DNA from: a virus | DNA: 25,803 nucleotides | IMG/VR virus record: IMGVR_UViG_3300030107_000262 | Location: 1-25,803 of that record | Reading direction: 5' to 3' (one strand) | In this document: in pieces, positions 1-23,640 of the stretch | Position numbering within the stretch: position 1 is the stretch's first letter | Layout of the letters: each line of letters starts with the position of its first letter | The notes under the pieces: generated by a model | Databases searched by the model: none | Seen by the model: only the letters and a program-made list of their open reading frames with translations | What the model was told of the DNA's origin: nothing | Made by a program: the position numbers and the translations under genes

Positions 1-117
1 TACGATGCGTTGAGGTATATGGTAATGAGTAGGACTTTAATGAATGTTCATTCTCCACATAGGATGATGAAGCAGACGCAGCAATATGAACCACAAGATC
101 AGGTATTTGGATATTAA
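1..117 (+). CDS. terL: Terminase large subunit, C-terminal end (partial)
   Basis: The window opens inside a gene; frame 1 is open from base 1 to a TAA at 115-117 and encodes the last 38 residues. The fragment begins YDALRYMVMSR, which matches the typical C-terminal end of phage terminase large subunits, where a (D)DALRY sequence closes the nuclease domain. That family is the ATP-driven motor and nuclease that cuts concatemeric DNA and pumps it into the prohead. The ATPase motifs and most of the nuclease lie outside the window, so the call rests on this short tail plus position just upstream of the portal gene. The stop is 2 nt before the ATG of the next gene, so the two are probably translationally coupled. 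Confidence 0.72.
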   Translation, partial: YDALRYMVMSRTLMNVHSPHRMMKQTQQYEPQDQVFGY

Positions 118-119
118 TT

Positions 120-2252
120 ATGGCAACAGGTAAAACAAAATTAAGAGATGTAATTTTAGAAGCAATAGCTACAAGAGGTATACTTAATGAAGGAAAAGAT
201 AAACCTAATGTAAATAGTAAAACTCTTAATGCTAATATAAAAAAACTTATAGAAGCTAATCCATTAATAATGAAAAAGGAAATTGCTGATCCGTGGAAGG
301 CTGGCCCTATTAATGCTTTTAGTTCATATCTTACTCAATGGGAAAATTTAAAAATGCCTGATAGTAAAATGTCAGTGCTAGACATGCCTATTGAACAATT
401 TAAAGATAAATCTGTTTTAGAATATGTAGCTAAAAAAGTAAAAGAAAAAGGTTTTAAATACGGTGCAAGTTTAGAAACTGTATTTGACCAGATTACTAAG
501 TACTCAGGGTATGATACAGATAAAAGATATTTTACAGAATTTTTTGGGACTAGAACAGGTTCTAAAGTAAAAATAAAAACTGGGACAGGTACTGGAAGAG
601 GTAGAAAATTAGTAGATTTACCTAATGATATATATGCTTCATTAAGAGAAATAGAAAAAGGTATTAATAATCCTTTATCTAGAATAACTGCTCAATTTAT
701 GAATTTAACAGGACATAGAGGTAAAGAAATTAGTACTTTAAACATAGAAGATTTTAAAAAAATTGAAGGTACTAGAGGAGAAGGTTCTTCATATGGAGGA
801 AAATATAATTTACATGCTACTGGCTGGGGATTAAAGCAAAATTATAAAGCAATGAATTTTACTGTTTTAGGTAAAATATTAATTCATAATGCTTTGATGA
901 TAGCAGAAAAAGAAGGAAGAACTACAGGGCCTTTATTTCCATCTGCAATAGCTGTAGACGACATAGTTACAAGAGGACTTATAGCTAATTATGGAGAAAA
1001 AGCTATAGAAACATATGTAACTGGAAAAGAAGAAGCCGAGGCAGGAAGCCCTACACGAGCATTGCTTCGTAAACTTGCAAAAGGTAGATATTTAATGTCT
1101 GAAGGTATTGCAGAATTTGCGGGGCCATTTTACAAAGGTGCAATAAATATTTTACAAGGTATTGCTGATCAATCAACAGAAAATAATTATCCAAGTATTA
1201 ATGATAGAGAAGGAGCTATAAATCATGTAGGTAAATTTGTAGATAATAGATTTATAGCCTTTTCAGGTTCAAATAATTTATATGCATTTTTAGCTGCAAA
1301 TAATTTAGAAGTTCCTGAAGGTCTTAATGAATATGTTAAAGAACAAAGTACGCCAGATTCAAGATATTTAATTACTGGTAGAAATTTTTTAGCATGGATG
1401 CCTAAAGAAGCTAGAGCAAAATTATTAACTAATACACCTGTAAATGAAGTTCCTGTTACAGAAATAAATTACGGTGATATTCAAGAACAAAGAGAAGACA
1501 GTAAAATAAAACAAAAAATAAAAACTAAAGCATCTACTAGAAAAGATTTAATAGAAGCTGAAAAAGCAAAAACAGCAGATATAAATTTAATGAAAGTTGA
1601 ATTTATGAAACAAGGTTTTTCTGAAGATGAAGCATTAACAAAAGCTCGTAATACTTTGGGGGGTAAAATAGAAAAATATGTAGACCCTTTAAATGAAGCT
1701 GATAGAGATTATATCAGTGAAAATATGAATGAAGAAACAGATAATAATATAAAAAAAATAGCACAAGAAAATAAATTAGATCTTAAAAAAGAAAAAGATG
1801 TACGTCTTATGCTAAAAGAACTTTTTAAAAAAGGAAAAGGCCCTTTAGGTTTAGGACTTCTTACAGGGGGTCTTACAATGTTAGAAGATAATTTAAGTGC
1901 TGAGGATTTATTAGGGCCGGGTGTAAATGTTTACGGATATAATGTTTTTGATTATGATAAAGGCCCTAGAGGTTTAGTTGTTGATAAAGAACTTGCAGAC
2001 GATAAAATGTATAAAACGGGAACAGCAGATATAGGAGATGCTTTACCACATGAGCAAGAAAATATACTAACTGGAGCTGCTAAAATGGGAGACCCAAAAG
2101 CATTAGAACATGTTGAAAGACTATCAGCAACTTTAAAAAGAAACAAAGCATATGAAGAAGAACAAAAAAAAATAAAAGAAGAATTTAAAAGAGCAAAACA
2201 AAAAGAAGAAATGGATAAACTTCTTGCAGATCCACTAGGAGCAATAGATTAA
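120..2252 (+). CDS. Tyrosine-recombinase-like protein with long C-terminal extension
   Basis: A 710-residue protein. Residues 164-360 resemble the catalytic domain of tyrosine recombinases. TGHRGKEISTLNIEDF (197-212) matches the box I pattern with Arg200, GPLFPS (270-275) matches a conserved segment, LLRKLAKG (315-322) could supply the second arginine (Arg317), and LQGIADQSTENNYPS (345-359) occupies the place of the LGH...Y motif with Tyr357 as possible nucleophile. Residues 60-150 are helical and could be the core-binding domain. The usual histidines are not seen: Ala314 sits where the HxxR histidine belongs and Ile348 where LGH ends, so activity is doubtful. Residues 430-710 are a Lys/Glu-rich, coiled-coil-prone extension with a glycine-rich patch near 575-590; family members are usually 300-400 residues. 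The gene is visibly more AT-rich than the capsid genes. It could be a degenerate integrase, a DNA-binding packaging factor or a virion protein. Confidence 0.6.
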   Translation: MATGKTKLRDVILEAIATRGILNEGKDKPNVNSKTLNANIKKLIEANPLIMKKEIADPWKAGPINAFSSYLTQWENLKMPDSKMSVLDMPIEQFKDKSVLEYVAKKVKEKGFKYGASLETVFDQITKYSGYDTDKRYFTEFFGTRTGSKVKIKTGTGTGRGRKLVDLPNDIYASLREIEKGINNPLSRITAQFMNLTGHRGKEISTLNIEDFKKIEGTRGEGSSYGGKYNLHATGWGLKQNYKAMNFTVLGKILIHNALMIAEKEGRTTGPLFPSAIAVDDIVTRGLIANYGEKAIETYVTGKEEAEAGSPTRALLRKLAKGRYLMSEGIAEFAGPFYKGAINILQGIADQSTENNYPSINDREGAINHVGKFVDNRFIAFSGSNNLYAFLAANNLEVPEGLNEYVKEQSTPDSRYLITGRNFLAWMPKEARAKLLTNTPVNEVPVTEINYGDIQEQREDSKIKQKIKTKASTRKDLIEAEKAKTADINLMKVEFMKQGFSEDEALTKARNTLGGKIEKYVDPLNEADRDYISENMNEETDNNIKKIAQENKLDLKKEKDVRLMLKELFKKGKGPLGLGLLTGGLTMLEDNLSAEDLLGPGVNVYGYNVFDYDKGPRGLVVDKELADDKMYKTGTADIGDALPHEQENILTGAAKMGDPKALEHVERLSATLKRNKAYEEEQKKIKEEFKRAKQKEEMDKLLADPLGAID

Positions 2253-2279
2253 TTTTAACAACCAAAAAAGGAGGTAAAC

Positions 2280-2513
2280 ATGCCATACGGTAATCCAAAA
2301 GCATATAAATCAGACTACATCATGGGCCAGATGAAGAAGCAAGGCGAAATGAGTGAAGTTGGTGAAAAGCTATACAGAGAAAAACTGGATCCGAAAGTAA
2401 TGGGCGAGAACAGCGGAGCATTTAAGCAGTCTGAAGACTCTAAATCTGCTTCTGGTAATGTTCATATGAAGCAAGCCGGTTACATCATGGGTCAAACAAA
2501 AAAAGTAAAATAA
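2280..2513 (+). CDS. Small hypothetical protein with repeated YIMGQ motif
   Basis: A 77-residue, basic, hydrophilic protein with no signal peptide or membrane segment. Its start is fixed by a strong ribosome-binding site, AAGGAGG, a few bases upstream. The motif YIMGQ occurs near both ends (residues 13-17 and 68-72), each followed by a lysine-rich stretch (MKKQ and TKKVK), so the protein may carry two copies of one short binding motif. It is rich in Met, Lys, Gly and Ser. It lies between the recombinase-like gene and the portal gene, 13 nt before the latter. Base composition is less AT-rich than the gene before it. I do not recognise the family; a small virion or assembly protein is a guess from position. 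Confidence 0.75.
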   Translation: MPYGNPKAYKSDYIMGQMKKQGEMSEVGEKLYREKLDPKVMGENSGAFKQSEDSKSASGNVHMKQAGYIMGQTKKVK

Positions 2514-2526
2514 GTTAGGATAAAAA

Positions 2527-4647
2527 ATGAGCGATCCTCAAGACGTATCAGAAGACATGTCTCTTGAAGATGCACCCGGATTAGTAGGGTACATCAAAGA
2601 GAAACAACGAGAGGCTGAAGACGGTAGGCAAGTACATGAAGAACGATGGTTAAAGGCTTATAAAAATTTTAGAGGTGTCTATGATAGTACTACACAGTAT
2701 ACATCAAAAGAAAAATCAAAAGTATTTATAAAAATAACCAAGACAAAAGTACTTGCTGCCTACGGACAGATTGTAGATATCTTATTTGCTAATAAGAAAT
2801 TTCCAATTACTGTGGAGCCTACACCTGTTCCTGAAGGAATAGCAGAGTTTGCTCATATAGAAACCCCTCTTGATCAAGCTGTTCCTGCCGATCCTTATGG
2901 TTTTAAAGGAGATGGAAGAGAATTACCACCCGGAGGTTTTCAGGCTACAGAAGGTAATTTAGATTATTTAGGAGGTTTAGCACCAAAATTTGAAGGTGCA
3001 CCTATTGCTGAAGGTAAAGCTAGGATGGGCGAACCACAAATATCTCCTGCACAGGAAACAGCTTTGAGGATGGAAAAAGTAATACATGATCAATTGATGG
3101 GTTCAAATGCTATTTCTACACTTAGAAATGCTATATTTGAATCTGCTTTATTAGGTACAGGAATTATAAAAGGCCCATTTACACATACAAAAACTGTACA
3201 TAAATGGGAGAGTGTAGAAGGAGAAGGTAAAACATACACACCTTATTTTAAAGACGTGCCTAAAATAGAATCTGTATCATGTTGGGATCTCTATCCTGAT
3301 CCTCTAGCAACAAATGTAGATGACTGTGATTATATAATTCAAAGACACAAGATGAATAGAGCACAGCTTAGAAATTTAATGGACATGCCAATGTTCAATC
3401 CTGATGCTATTCGAGAAGTTTTAGAAGGTGGTGGTAACTACCAAGATAAGTATTATGAGAGTGTAATACGAGATGAAGAACAAGTACAAACAGGGTCTGC
3501 TGATAGATACGAAGTTTTAGAATATTGGGGTTGTATAGATTCTAATTTTTTAGAACAAGTTGGTGTAGACACTTCTGAAGTAGATGATTTAGGACAAGTA
3601 CAGGCAAATATTTGGATATGTGGAGGACAGGTTTTACGAGCAGTAATAAATCCTTTTGTACCTATGCGTATGCCTTATCAAATATTTCCTTATGAAATAA
3701 GCCCTTATCAAATATGGGGCATTGGAATACCAGAAAATATGGAAGATGCACAGATGTTAATGAATGGGCATGTTCGTATGGCAATTGATAATTTATCTCT
3801 GGCAGGTAATATGGTTTTTGATGTTGATGAAACATCATTAGTTCCCGGACAGAATTATGATATATTTCCGGGCAAGATATTCAGAAGACAGTCTGGCGTT
3901 ACAGGAACTGCAGTGAATGGAATTAAATTTCCTAACACTGCAGGAGAAAACATACAGATGTATGATAAAGCTAGACAGTTGGCTGATGAAGAAACTGGTA
4001 TACCCAGTATTATGCACGGACAGACAGGCGTTACTGGCACGGGCAGAACAGCAGCTGGCCTATCAATGTTGTTAGGATCAGCTGGCCTATCAATAAAGAC
4101 TGTTATTAAAAATTTGGATGACTATCTTTTGAAACCACTAGGCGAAGCATTGTTTCAATGGAATATGCAGTTTAATAATGAACAACCTGATATTGTGGGA
4201 GATTTAGAAATAAAACCAAAAGGTGTATCTTCTGTAATGCAAAAAGAAGTTCGTTCTCAAAGATTAACTGCTTTATTGCAAACAGTGGCTAATCCTATGT
4301 TAGCTCCGTTTATTAAGATTCCTAATCTTATAAAAGAATTAGCAATTTCACAAGATATTGATCCAGACAGTCTAGTAAATGATATTAACCAAGCTCAAAT
4401 ATACGCAGAAATGCTGAAAGGAATAATGCAAAATGTCCAACCAGAACAACAACCAGAATCAGGAAGTCCTCAAACAATTAGCCCCGGTGGTCAACAACCC
4501 ACAGGTATGGGAGCCCCTCAACAAACTGCTGCAGGGCCTCCACCTACAGACATTACAGGGACTGGTAACGGCACAATCGGAACTGGAGGTGTACCGACTG
4601 CAGGGGAGAGCCAGTTTGCTGGCAATGCTCCTCAACTTGAAGACTAA
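2527..4647 (+). CDS. Portal protein (head-tail connector)
   Basis: A 706-residue protein of the size and style of podovirus portals, which form the dodecameric ring at one capsid vertex through which DNA is packaged and ejected. The N-terminal third has the helical pattern of such proteins (for example WLKAYKNFRGVYDS, about residues 41-54, and KVLAAYGQIVDILFANKKFP, 74-93). The middle holds aromatic, Pro-rich segments (MRMPYQIFPYEISPYQIWGI), and GRTAAGLSMLLGSAGLSIK precedes long helices, as is common before the portal stem. The last 70 residues are low-complexity Pro/Gln/Gly/Thr. This tail overlaps a different gene in the +1 frame from 4433 on, which may explain its odd composition. The gene follows terminase as usual. 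The portal assignment is firm by pattern and context, although I cannot name the exact family. Confidence 0.85.
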   Translation: MSDPQDVSEDMSLEDAPGLVGYIKEKQREAEDGRQVHEERWLKAYKNFRGVYDSTTQYTSKEKSKVFIKITKTKVLAAYGQIVDILFANKKFPITVEPTPVPEGIAEFAHIETPLDQAVPADPYGFKGDGRELPPGGFQATEGNLDYLGGLAPKFEGAPIAEGKARMGEPQISPAQETALRMEKVIHDQLMGSNAISTLRNAIFESALLGTGIIKGPFTHTKTVHKWESVEGEGKTYTPYFKDVPKIESVSCWDLYPDPLATNVDDCDYIIQRHKMNRAQLRNLMDMPMFNPDAIREVLEGGGNYQDKYYESVIRDEEQVQTGSADRYEVLEYWGCIDSNFLEQVGVDTSEVDDLGQVQANIWICGGQVLRAVINPFVPMRMPYQIFPYEISPYQIWGIGIPENMEDAQMLMNGHVRMAIDNLSLAGNMVFDVDETSLVPGQNYDIFPGKIFRRQSGVTGTAVNGIKFPNTAGENIQMYDKARQLADEETGIPSIMHGQTGVTGTGRTAAGLSMLLGSAGLSIKTVIKNLDDYLLKPLGEALFQWNMQFNNEQPDIVGDLEIKPKGVSSVMQKEVRSQRLTALLQTVANPMLAPFIKIPNLIKELAISQDIDPDSLVNDINQAQIYAEMLKGIMQNVQPEQQPESGSPQTISPGGQQPTGMGAPQQTAAGPPPTDITGTGNGTIGTGGVPTAGESQFAGNAPQLED
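4052..4094 (+). repeat. Short direct repeat inside the portal gene
   Basis: The 16-mer CAGCTGGCCTATCAAT occurs at 4052-4067 and again at 4079-4094, 27 nt apart and in frame, encoding AAGLSM and SAGLSI. It is probably a small internal duplication within the conserved portal helix region, without regulatory meaning. Confidence 0.6.
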
Positions 4648-4684
4648 TTTTGATCAGATGAAAAAGGAAGATAATAAAAAATAA
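4433..4684 (+). CDS. Small leucine-rich protein overlapping the portal gene
   Basis: An 83-residue protein whose first 215 nt lie within the portal gene in the +1 frame; it ends at 4684, directly against the ATG of the next gene at 4685. Its ATG has a plausible Shine-Dalgarno sequence AAAGGA at 4417-4422. After an Asn/Gln-rich start, residues 14-70 form amphipathic helices, including NNPQVWEPLNKLLQGL and SELEVYRLQGRASLLAMLLN. Small phage proteins with a similar Q-S-E-x-E-x-[FY]-R-L-Q-G-x8-LLNL ending are familiar to me next to portal genes. The portal frame here is low-complexity PQGT, so the structured reading is this one. Function unknown; probably a small virion or head-completion protein. 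A +1 frameshift giving a portal extension is a less likely alternative. Confidence 0.7.
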   Translation: MSNQNNNQNQEVLKQLAPVVNNPQVWEPLNKLLQGLHLQTLQGLVTAQSELEVYRLQGRASLLAMLLNLKTNFDQMKKEDNKK

Positions 4685-6169
4685 ATGGCAATTAACCCAG
4701 CACATATAGGTGGTTTTGCAACTACTGGAGAACAGGCAAAACAATCAGGTGAAGTATCTGATATTGAATTTTCACTTTTAGAAGGGCCTGCTGAAGTTGC
4801 AGGAGTAGGCGATGTAAAGGCAGCCAATATTCAAGTTAAAAGAGATGCTTTTAAAGGATTAGATTTTCTCAATAGCGAAGCAGATAAAGAAGAGGTTGAT
4901 GAAGGAACTCAAGACCCTTTAACTAAACTAAGACGAACAATGGCAGCTATGTCTTCTACTCCTGCAAGTTTAGTAGATGTTACTTCTGATTTACGAGATG
5001 CCGGAGATGGTTATAGTGCAAACTGGAGAGCTGGTGTGGATGCTTTTAAATCGCTAGCCATTCCTACAACTATGGGTTTAATATCTGGAGCCGGTGCTAT
5101 TTTAAGTGAAAAAGCAAAAGAAGATAGTTATTTTACTGATATAAGCAATCTTTCAGATGTAGTAAAGGGCTCTGATGGTGCTGAAATTCAGCACGCTGCT
5201 GCAGGTGCAGAAACTGTGGCAAAAGGTGTTGATTGGTTAGCAGAACAAGACTGGATTCATTCAGATATTAAAAACATAAACAAACCTATTACAAGCGTAG
5301 GAGGTTATAAACTACCCGGCTATGACCCTAAAGTAGCAAGTAGCAAATATGGAAGTTATCAAGAATACGCTCAAAGTTCTACAGCATCTCCTACATTGGC
5401 GGGCCAAATAGGAGGAACAGCTATGGCTGTAACTTCTGCATATTCTGCGTATGATGCACTAAAAGGTGGTATTGACAGCCCAATGGAGGGTGCTCAAGCT
5501 GTAAGTGGTATAATAGGTACGATAGGTGGTTTAAACGCTATGGGATTAATATCCACACCCGGTTTTATGGCAGCAGCAGGGCCTATAGGGTGGGGTATAA
5601 CCGCTGCTACTTTTTTATATCAATCAGGTTTAATTGGAGGAAAAGGAAAAGATAAAGTTCCAATGGGCGGTGTAGAATTTAGATTGGTAGATAATGAAGG
5701 TAATCAATTTGCCCGTCCAGAAGAAGGCAAAAACAGAAAAATAAAAGCTGTAAATGCTCACAGTTACAATGGTTTTAATTCTAGTGCTTTATTAGCACAA
5801 GCAAACAAAAACGTAGATTACATGTATTCATTTGCAGATCATTTTGGTTTGAAAGTAAATGAAGGTGCTTGGTCACAAGCAGCGTTTGGAGGAGATGGTG
5901 TAGATAAATACATGACTAGAGGAAGGGAGGCACCTTATAGAAGTGTGTTAGAGAGAATAGATACTATGGGAGATGGTTCTGTAAGTCCAAGCGAGTGGTT
6001 ACGACACGCTATGGAATATGAAGGGCCAAATGGAGAGAGAATAGTTGAAGGAGACATATATAAAGGTGTACGAATAGGCCCTAATGGATTGCCGATGAAA
6101 GTAGGATATAAAACACAAGAAGATTTTCAAGAAGAAGTAGCTAAATTTAATAAGCAATTTTACGCATAA
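4685..6169 (+). CDS. Putative internal virion / ejection protein with EF-hand-like loop
   Basis: A 494-residue protein without a signal peptide. Residues 1-120 are mixed and acidic. Residues 240-318 are rich in Gly and Ala and strongly hydrophobic (for example GIIGTIGGLNAMGLIS and GPIGWGITAATFLYQSGLI), a composition seen in phage proteins that enter membranes during DNA ejection. Near the C-terminus, residues 426-437 read DTMGDGSVSPSE, matching the calcium-binding EF-hand loop at positions 1, 5, 6, 8 and 12, with Met in place of the usual Asp/Asn at position 3. Helical residues flank it (YRSVLERI and WLRHAMEY). The start follows the preceding stop with no gap, and AAGGAA at 4664-4669 may serve as ribosome-binding site. 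It lies between portal and holin. The ejection role is inferred from composition and context only. Confidence 0.6.
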   Translation: MAINPAHIGGFATTGEQAKQSGEVSDIEFSLLEGPAEVAGVGDVKAANIQVKRDAFKGLDFLNSEADKEEVDEGTQDPLTKLRRTMAAMSSTPASLVDVTSDLRDAGDGYSANWRAGVDAFKSLAIPTTMGLISGAGAILSEKAKEDSYFTDISNLSDVVKGSDGAEIQHAAAGAETVAKGVDWLAEQDWIHSDIKNINKPITSVGGYKLPGYDPKVASSKYGSYQEYAQSSTASPTLAGQIGGTAMAVTSAYSAYDALKGGIDSPMEGAQAVSGIIGTIGGLNAMGLISTPGFMAAAGPIGWGITAATFLYQSGLIGGKGKDKVPMGGVEFRLVDNEGNQFARPEEGKNRKIKAVNAHSYNGFNSSALLAQANKNVDYMYSFADHFGLKVNEGAWSQAAFGGDGVDKYMTRGREAPYRSVLERIDTMGDGSVSPSEWLRHAMEYEGPNGERIVEGDIYKGVRIGPNGLPMKVGYKTQEDFQEEVAKFNKQFYA

Positions 6170-23004: not shown

Positions 23005-23640
23005 ATGAGATATGAAGCAAAACCACCAGTAAGTATGTACGATGATAGTAAACCCGATCCGGGTTCTATAGAAGCGTTAGATCCTCACTCTTCTCCTATT
23101 CCGGGACAGAGTTTAACAATGAGACCGGGCAGTCAAAAGTTTGAAAGACCTCCACAGTTTACAAATCCAGATGATTGTATTATGTTTGTTTTAGATAGGA
23201 TAGAACAAAATCATAATGTTAAAGAAGATTATCTAAGACAGATGGCTTCTGGTGTTCCTGTAGAATACATTGTAAATACAATATCTTTTGTGGGTTTTTC
23301 AGAGGGTATGTGGAGCCCTGACGTAGCAGAACTAATAAAACCACCGCTAGCCATGTATTTTATGATGATGGGTCTAGAAGAAGAAATACCTGTGGTGTTG
23401 TTCAATCCTGAAGCAAAGGACAATAGTAAAATATCTGATGAAGAGATTATGGAAAATATGCAACAGCTTAATCCACAGGCTTTTAATTACATACAGCAAA
23501 GGGCTCAGGGTATGCAAGCTGTGCCTGAAGAGGAACAAGGATTTTTAGATATGTTATCTACAGAAGGAGGGCCGGCTGCTGAAGAAGGGGCAGGCGAATT
23601 ACCAGTCGATGAAACTATACCACAGGAAGGGATGATATAA
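23005..23640 (+). CDS. Hypothetical acidic virion-associated protein
   Basis: A 211-residue acidic protein starting 4 nt after the previous stop. The N-terminal 55 residues are Pro/Ser/Asp-rich. Residues 55-130 form a compact helical region: DCIMFVLDRIEQNHNVKEDY, PVEYIVNTISFVGFSEGMWS (75-94) and VAELIKPPLAMYFMMMGLEE, the last hydrophobic enough for a buried helix but not a good membrane segment. The C-terminus is Glu/Gln/Met-rich and disordered-looking (YIQQRAQGMQAVPEEEQGF and onward to the end). The next gene starts 1 nt after its stop. Family unknown; context suggests a partner of the large protein that follows, perhaps in the capsid core. Confidence 0.6.
   Translation: MRYEAKPPVSMYDDSKPDPGSIEALDPHSSPIPGQSLTMRPGSQKFERPPQFTNPDDCIMFVLDRIEQNHNVKEDYLRQMASGVPVEYIVNTISFVGFSEGMWSPDVAELIKPPLAMYFMMMGLEEEIPVVLFNPEAKDNSKISDEEIMENMQQLNPQAFNYIQQRAQGMQAVPEEEQGFLDMLSTEGGPAAEEGAGELPVDETIPQEGMI

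Follow-up and report, generated by a model that had tools for sequence, protein, structure and literature searches.

What does a protein that resembles a tyrosine recombinase do between the terminase and the portal of a phage, and is it still an enzyme? The locus lies at the start of the window (the whole stretch of DNA analysed here, 25,803 nt with 36% GC), which derives from a marine podophage of the HMO-2011 type and is a linear fragment of its genome. Phages of this type rank among the most abundant marine viruses. All the features described below for positions 1-4647 are on the plus strand. The window opens with the 3' end of terL, the large terminase gene (1-117, ending in ...EPQDQVFGY and a stop codon), which we recognised by its reading frame and by the fact that the same FGY-stop terL end adjoins the recombinase start in relatives, where the upstream ORFs of terL size encode 531-578 aa. 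The ORF of interest (120-2252) begins with ATG 2 nt past the terL stop and, as the first-pass annotation had it, encodes 710 aa. Downstream, the ORF list gives a small ORF of 77 aa (2280-2513), with similar small ORFs in most relatives, and then the portal gene as right neighbour (2527-4647; PHROG 332 / 1216, head-tail adaptor/portal, 6e-76), whose product is 49-54% identical to the portals of Puniceispirillum phage HMO-2011 and Pelagibacter phage HTVC033P. The product of the 77-aa ORF contains a repeated YIMGQ motif, and many of the small ORFs that precede the portal in relatives start with MPxNNYNYG.

A tyrosine recombinase with a long C-terminal extension

The window protein alone has no match in Pfam, in the PDB, in 50,697 phage records searched with tblastn, or in pattern searches of viral contigs; tblastn with three other family members also gave no match in 50,697 phage records. 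A profile of 59 positional homologues compared with the PDB matches solved tyrosine recombinases, with the XerC-like 4a8e as the best hit (E = 2e-8), followed by Tn1549 Int (7e-8), XerA (1e-5) and XerD (2e-5), and also XerH. Searched singly, 28 of the 59 members match a PHROG integrase and 19 of the 59 match PF00589 at E <= 0.01; the curated cut-off of PF00589 (27.1 bits) is reached by two relatives (29.3 and 27.1 bits), and the window protein is unmatched. AF2 models the window protein with middling confidence (pLDDT 66), and ranks 1-31 of a Foldseek search of this model against the PDB are all tyrosine recombinases, including lambda Int at a probability of 0.99 (E = 8e-3). The model of a relative, L043, is good (pLDDT 82): its ranks 1-40 are again all tyrosine recombinases, with a top probability of 1.00, and integrases of the viral library BFVD are matched at 3e-5. 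The recombinase core that the first-pass annotation had recognised by eye is thus confirmed by profile search and by structure prediction, and the profile match and the conservation of the catalytic columns place it beyond chance.

The predicted structure has three parts. The N-terminal region (approximately residues 1-165, 120-614) is helical and, to judge from the AF2 helices and from the N-terminal T/E positions conserved in the family, probably core-binding-like. The catalytic domain (approximately residues 168-381, 621-1262) is modelled in blocks with pLDDT mostly between 60 and 96, and has Foldseek matches to lambda Int, Cre and XerH. The C-terminal extension (1263-2249) is helical, then of low confidence (residues 572-650 in the AF2 pLDDT profile), and closes with a C-terminal helix; the stretch beyond the catalytic domain comes to about 330-350 residues, and not the roughly 280 first estimated.

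The catalytic domain contains the RI arginine Arg200 (717-719, in TGHRGKE at residues 197-203), the Kbeta lysine Lys239 (834-836), the RII arginine Arg317 (1068-1070, in ALLRK) and the nucleophile Tyr357 (1188-1190, in NNYPS), with GPLFPS at residues 270-275. The first-pass annotation had placed these motifs correctly and listed both arginines and the tyrosine, but it overlooked the lysine, which lies in the beta-hairpin. It was also right that the histidines of HxxR and LGH are absent, their positions being held by Ala314 (1059-1061) and Ile348 (1161-1163). The auxiliary His/Lys of HxxR and His/Trp of LGH are common in tyrosine recombinases, though not universal. Set against the features of the superfamily (PF00589 / DNA_BRE_C), the window protein has the fold of the catalytic domain, the two arginines, the lysine and the tyrosine nucleophile, and is missing both auxiliary residues. 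By its R, K, R, Y and fold, it is a member of the tyrosine recombinase superfamily.

Two other kinds of enzyme were considered and rejected. A type IB topoisomerase would have Lys at the HxxR position, which is Ala314 here, and the structural matches listed are recombinases with no topoisomerase IB among them. A protelomerase (telomere resolvase) would call for a hairpin telomere palindrome close to its gene and a linear genome with hairpin ends, but no long palindrome is present in positions 1-2700 of the window, and the terminal repeats verified for two relatives (G002 and G011) are direct ones.

Position and conservation across the family

The relatives were reached through the conserved portal, which gave 80 viral contigs. 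A long ORF is present in the terL-portal slot wherever the contig extends there, and 69 of these ORFs, including that of the window, form one BLAST-connected family. Three scans with recombinase subfamilies resulted in 183 further loci, some of them on contigs of the first set. Among the judgeable loci found by recombinase sequence, terL directly precedes the gene in 177 out of 177 and the portal directly follows it in 150 out of 150. The placement in the packaging/head block, pointed out by the first-pass annotation for one contig, is therefore a strict rule of the family. Five genome-sized records (G002, G011, G014, G015 and G016; 53-55 kb) have one copy each and no other PF00589 gene or integrase. 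This gene order suggests that the recombinase is made together with the packaging and head proteins, and would be expressed late. One viral contig (L289), with a 23% match, was left out of the family, as its integrase-like ORF has neither terL nor portal next to it.

The family is absent from this slot in the cultured relatives HMO-2011, HTVC033P, HTVC115P, CRP-13, CRP-3, phiM6 and CHOED. The portal tree groups the recombinase-bearing phages with a contig from a Winogradskyella MAG (L103), with 100/100 support. The slot of this contig (L103:186-1205), whose portal is 67% identical, encodes a 339-aa protein that lacks recombinase motifs and resembles a PHROG family of virion structural proteins only weakly (E 0.002). 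The Sinorhizobium phage phiM6 has an annotated SGNH/GDSL hydrolase gene just before the portal (L086:5222-6829), which shows that the terL-portal region holds differing genes in different branches.

The sequences of the recombinases are very divergent. In an alignment of 101 members below 80% identity (nr80), the mean column identity is about 12%, and conservation is highest at R317 (101/101), R200 (100/100), Y357 (98/100), F273, G347 and K239 (90/98). The four catalytic columns are thus all within the top six. Phe replaces Tyr at the nucleophile column in 2 of the 100 members of this large alignment; both align a Tyr in a smaller one, so the Phe may be a misalignment. The HxxR histidine position is mostly Ser, Ala or Lys across the 101 relatives (among others, 41 Ser, 19 Ala, 11 Lys, 8 Thr and 8 Tyr) and His in 1. 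At the LGH histidine position, 59 of the 101 have His and 35 have Arg (94 together), with other residues in 7. The dN/dS of the core is between 0.04 and 0.40 in 12 pairs, which indicates purifying selection on the cassettes.

A near-invariant R-K-R-Y at such low identity, together with the low dN/dS of the core, is what one would expect of an enzyme that still carries out strand transfer. The putative recombinase is apparently active, its core catalytic residues being nearly always intact across the family. The window member could be slow or partner-dependent, because the HxxR histidine is nearly absent family-wide and the LGH histidine is also missing. The proposal that the protein is catalytically altered hence stands for the two auxiliary histidines, but not for R200, K239, R317 and Y357.

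Exchange of the recombinase ORF

The recombinase ORF is a precise single-ORF cassette that is traded between otherwise near-identical phages. In one pair of relatives (L031/L035), the terL sequences are 100% and the portals 99% identical, the recombinase cores are not alignable, and the blastn homology ends at the start codon +4 and returns 197 nt ahead of the stop. The window is 97.4% identical to another relative (L002) over 1-117 and 95.7% identical over 2131-4691, with no blastn match between these segments; the C-terminal tail that the two have in common (2131-2252) marks the right edge of the swapped cassette. The homology breaks at the start and stop of the gene in a third pair (L005/L006), and in a fourth (L042/L043) the portals are 100% identical and the recombinase cores 57%. 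Among 18 pairs with portals 93-97% identical, 10 have cores that fail to align over 150 aa. The recombinase gene also has a lower GC content than the portal side, i.e., is more AT-rich, in 68 of the 69 loci.

Since near-identical phages do not keep the same DNA-binding core, the target DNA is probably outside the conserved phage backbone, or within the recombinase's own ORF. DNA specificity is probably replaced along with the sequence of the cassette, so that the target would differ from virus to virus. A sequence-indifferent nicking-closing enzyme would also fit the unconserved DNA-binding parts. The idea of an attP embedded in the ORF was rejected: in the few subfamilies scanned, the peaks of conservation at four-fold sites (at the gene ends, with few internal ones) look like codon or phylogenetic signal.

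Explanations for a recombinase in the head operon

The best explanation in our view, and one that we give about an even chance, is a target-diversified, catalytically competent, late site-specific recombinase that is co-expressed with the packaging genes. One large, uncultured lineage of HMO-2011-type phages keeps the gene as a single copy, invariably in the terL-portal slot and closely linked to terL. The enzyme combines an R-K-x-R-x-Y catalytic domain, preceded by a core-binding-like one, with a C-terminal extension of 190-400 aa. Tyr357, activated by R200, K239 and R317, would cleave the DNA, and strands would be exchanged at a specific site. The swap of a whole-ORF cassette would replace the sequence and presumably the DNA specificity, the target being host or competing-element DNA, or the recombinase's own ORF, rather than the conserved backbone. 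The extension, often ending in short recurring motifs, may anchor the enzyme to the machinery of packaging or of the virion, and the tethered enzyme would act at packaging or enter with the genome.

An ordinary temperate integrase in an odd place is somewhat unlikely. Such an enzyme would integrate at a host attB, with the attP in the ORF (SSV-like) or elsewhere, and a switch of attB specificity would account for the swapping. It agrees with the fold and the catalytic residues, and with the lack of another integrase in the genomes that carry the gene; moreover, the sister subgroups I and III have canonical integrases, and CRP-3 integrates (PMC9038755). Yet the swap is limited to the ORF and leaves out the flanking DNA able to hold an attP, and a late-operon site is unusual for such an enzyme, the canonical integrases of HMO-2011-type phages being upstream of the replication module (PMC9038755). 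A scan of 84,980 genomes for the portal gave three MAG contigs, all without the recombinase gene, and so no provirus, a negative that proves little where the hosts are uncultured. The gene is never split or parted from its neighbours in the family loci, and no tRNA, tRNA-like or Rfam remnant was seen. Neither a repressor nor an excisionase is among the best 25 of 52 PHROG and 25 of 27 Pfam families of two complete genomes, whose listed matches include a T7-type endonuclease I. The first-pass annotation had seen no lysogeny gene in the window, and the matches listed for genome-sized records contain no lysogeny module either. Because an att site, a provirus and, among the families listed, a companion gene were not found, we do not class the recombinase as an integrase. 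The HMO-2011-type subgroups IV-X, which have no canonical integrase or lysogeny genes, have been termed possibly (obligately) lytic (PMC9038755).

A Cre/Xer-like resolvase of the phage chromosome, which would close the DNA into a circle on entry, resolve dimers or prepare concatemers for packaging, has a precedent in phiCbK gp143, proposed to resolve replication intermediates (PMC3556154). The neighbouring terL and portal, the strict retention of one gene per genome and the lysogeny genes not seen all suit this role. We nevertheless regard it as improbable: a fixed site on the phage predicts a conserved DNA-binding domain, whereas the cores are unalignable between phages with neighbouring genes 99-100% identical; the DNA next to the gene in the window shows no conspicuous palindromic site of the crossover type; and closely related HMO-2011-type phages lack the recombinase. 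The first-pass annotation had raised the idea of a recombinase fold reused, without catalysis, as a structural or cargo protein of the head or packaging machinery. The two missing histidines, the slot between terL and portal and the non-recombinase protein, with its weak virion-protein match, in the slot of the Winogradskyella contig point that way, but a protein of this kind would not keep exactly R-K-R-Y near-invariant amid such divergence, nor does it agree with purifying selection on the core, and we consider it very improbable.

Among the closest known systems, simple Xer-type tyrosine recombinases and lambda/Tn1549 integrases (PF00589) share with the family the fold, the R-K-R-Y active site and the core-binding plus catalytic architecture; the family differs from them by having mostly Ser, Ala or Lys for the HxxR histidine and often Arg for that of LGH, by the extension and by its strict position. 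The nearest precedent is gp50 of the Tyroviruses (Bacillus phages; also Perkons and Lactococcus 949-type), a tyrosine recombinase in the late structural module, between neck and tape-measure genes, of phages of 160-170 kb that have three recombinases each and a conserved putative attP adjoining gp50 (PMC9703825). In contrast, the window family is present as the sole copy, in the terL-portal slot, with no conserved flanking site seen and with swapping of the whole ORF. The gp143 of phiCbK is likewise a tyrosine recombinase in phages not known as temperate, but it has 208 aa, consists of the catalytic core only, and lies within the DNA replication module (PMC3556154). The CRP-3-type integrase of subgroups I and III is a tyrosine recombinase of related phages (PMC9038755), but it has 357 aa, is upstream of the replication module and is unmatched by the profile of the window family; the CRP-3 genome also differs in that terL and portal are adjacent. 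The terL-portal position, the extension and the cassette exchange are not described for Tyrovirus gp50 or phiCbK gp143. The feature is real, and it is not described in the literature searched.

The C-terminal extension and possible delivery

Between 193 and 399 aa follow the catalytic Tyr in all nr80 members but one, which is cut. The extension is modelled as helical near the core, with low confidence toward its end. A G[FM][LIVM] motif is present in the last 30 aa of 34 of the 69 recombinases and in none of 228 terL, portal, scaffold and MCP sequences, and the same motif occurs in 17 of 67 proteins encoded after the portal, where 6 are expected; both sets of counts ignore relatedness. The window recombinase itself is without this motif, and a search of the C-terminus for a hydrophobic, membrane-active segment of the ejection type gave nothing above shuffles. 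We hypothesise that the tail might attach the enzyme to components of the packaging apparatus or of the virion, and the gene order and the tail make it possible that the enzyme acts while DNA is packaged or inside the particle.

A more specific version of this idea is that these lytic-looking marine phages load the recombinase through its C-terminal tail and that the enzyme is injected together with the genome, to cut or recombine a site of the host or of a rival element. We think this unlikely as a whole; if true, a swap of cassettes would redirect the enzyme whenever the hosts or rivals changed. A whole lineage of HMO-2011-type phages carries a predicted, apparently active recombinase that single-sequence searches overlook, and its fixed site in the head operon and exchange as a single ORF make the DNA target and the carriage in virions testable questions. 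Either answer informs the inference of lifestyles from metagenomes, as well as why tyrosine recombinases occupy structural modules, a question shared with the Tyroviruses.

Similar protein ends occur elsewhere in these phages. The gene after the portal (4685-6169 in the window) varies widely in length (about 470-1235 aa in relatives), and in some relatives a GF[LIV] motif recurs at the C-terminus of both its product and the recombinase. Further downstream, the window encodes a late 211-aa protein that ends in QEGMI (23005-23640), and the proteins at the matching place in two relatives (G009 and G011) have ERGFL-type ends that resemble the recombinase tail.
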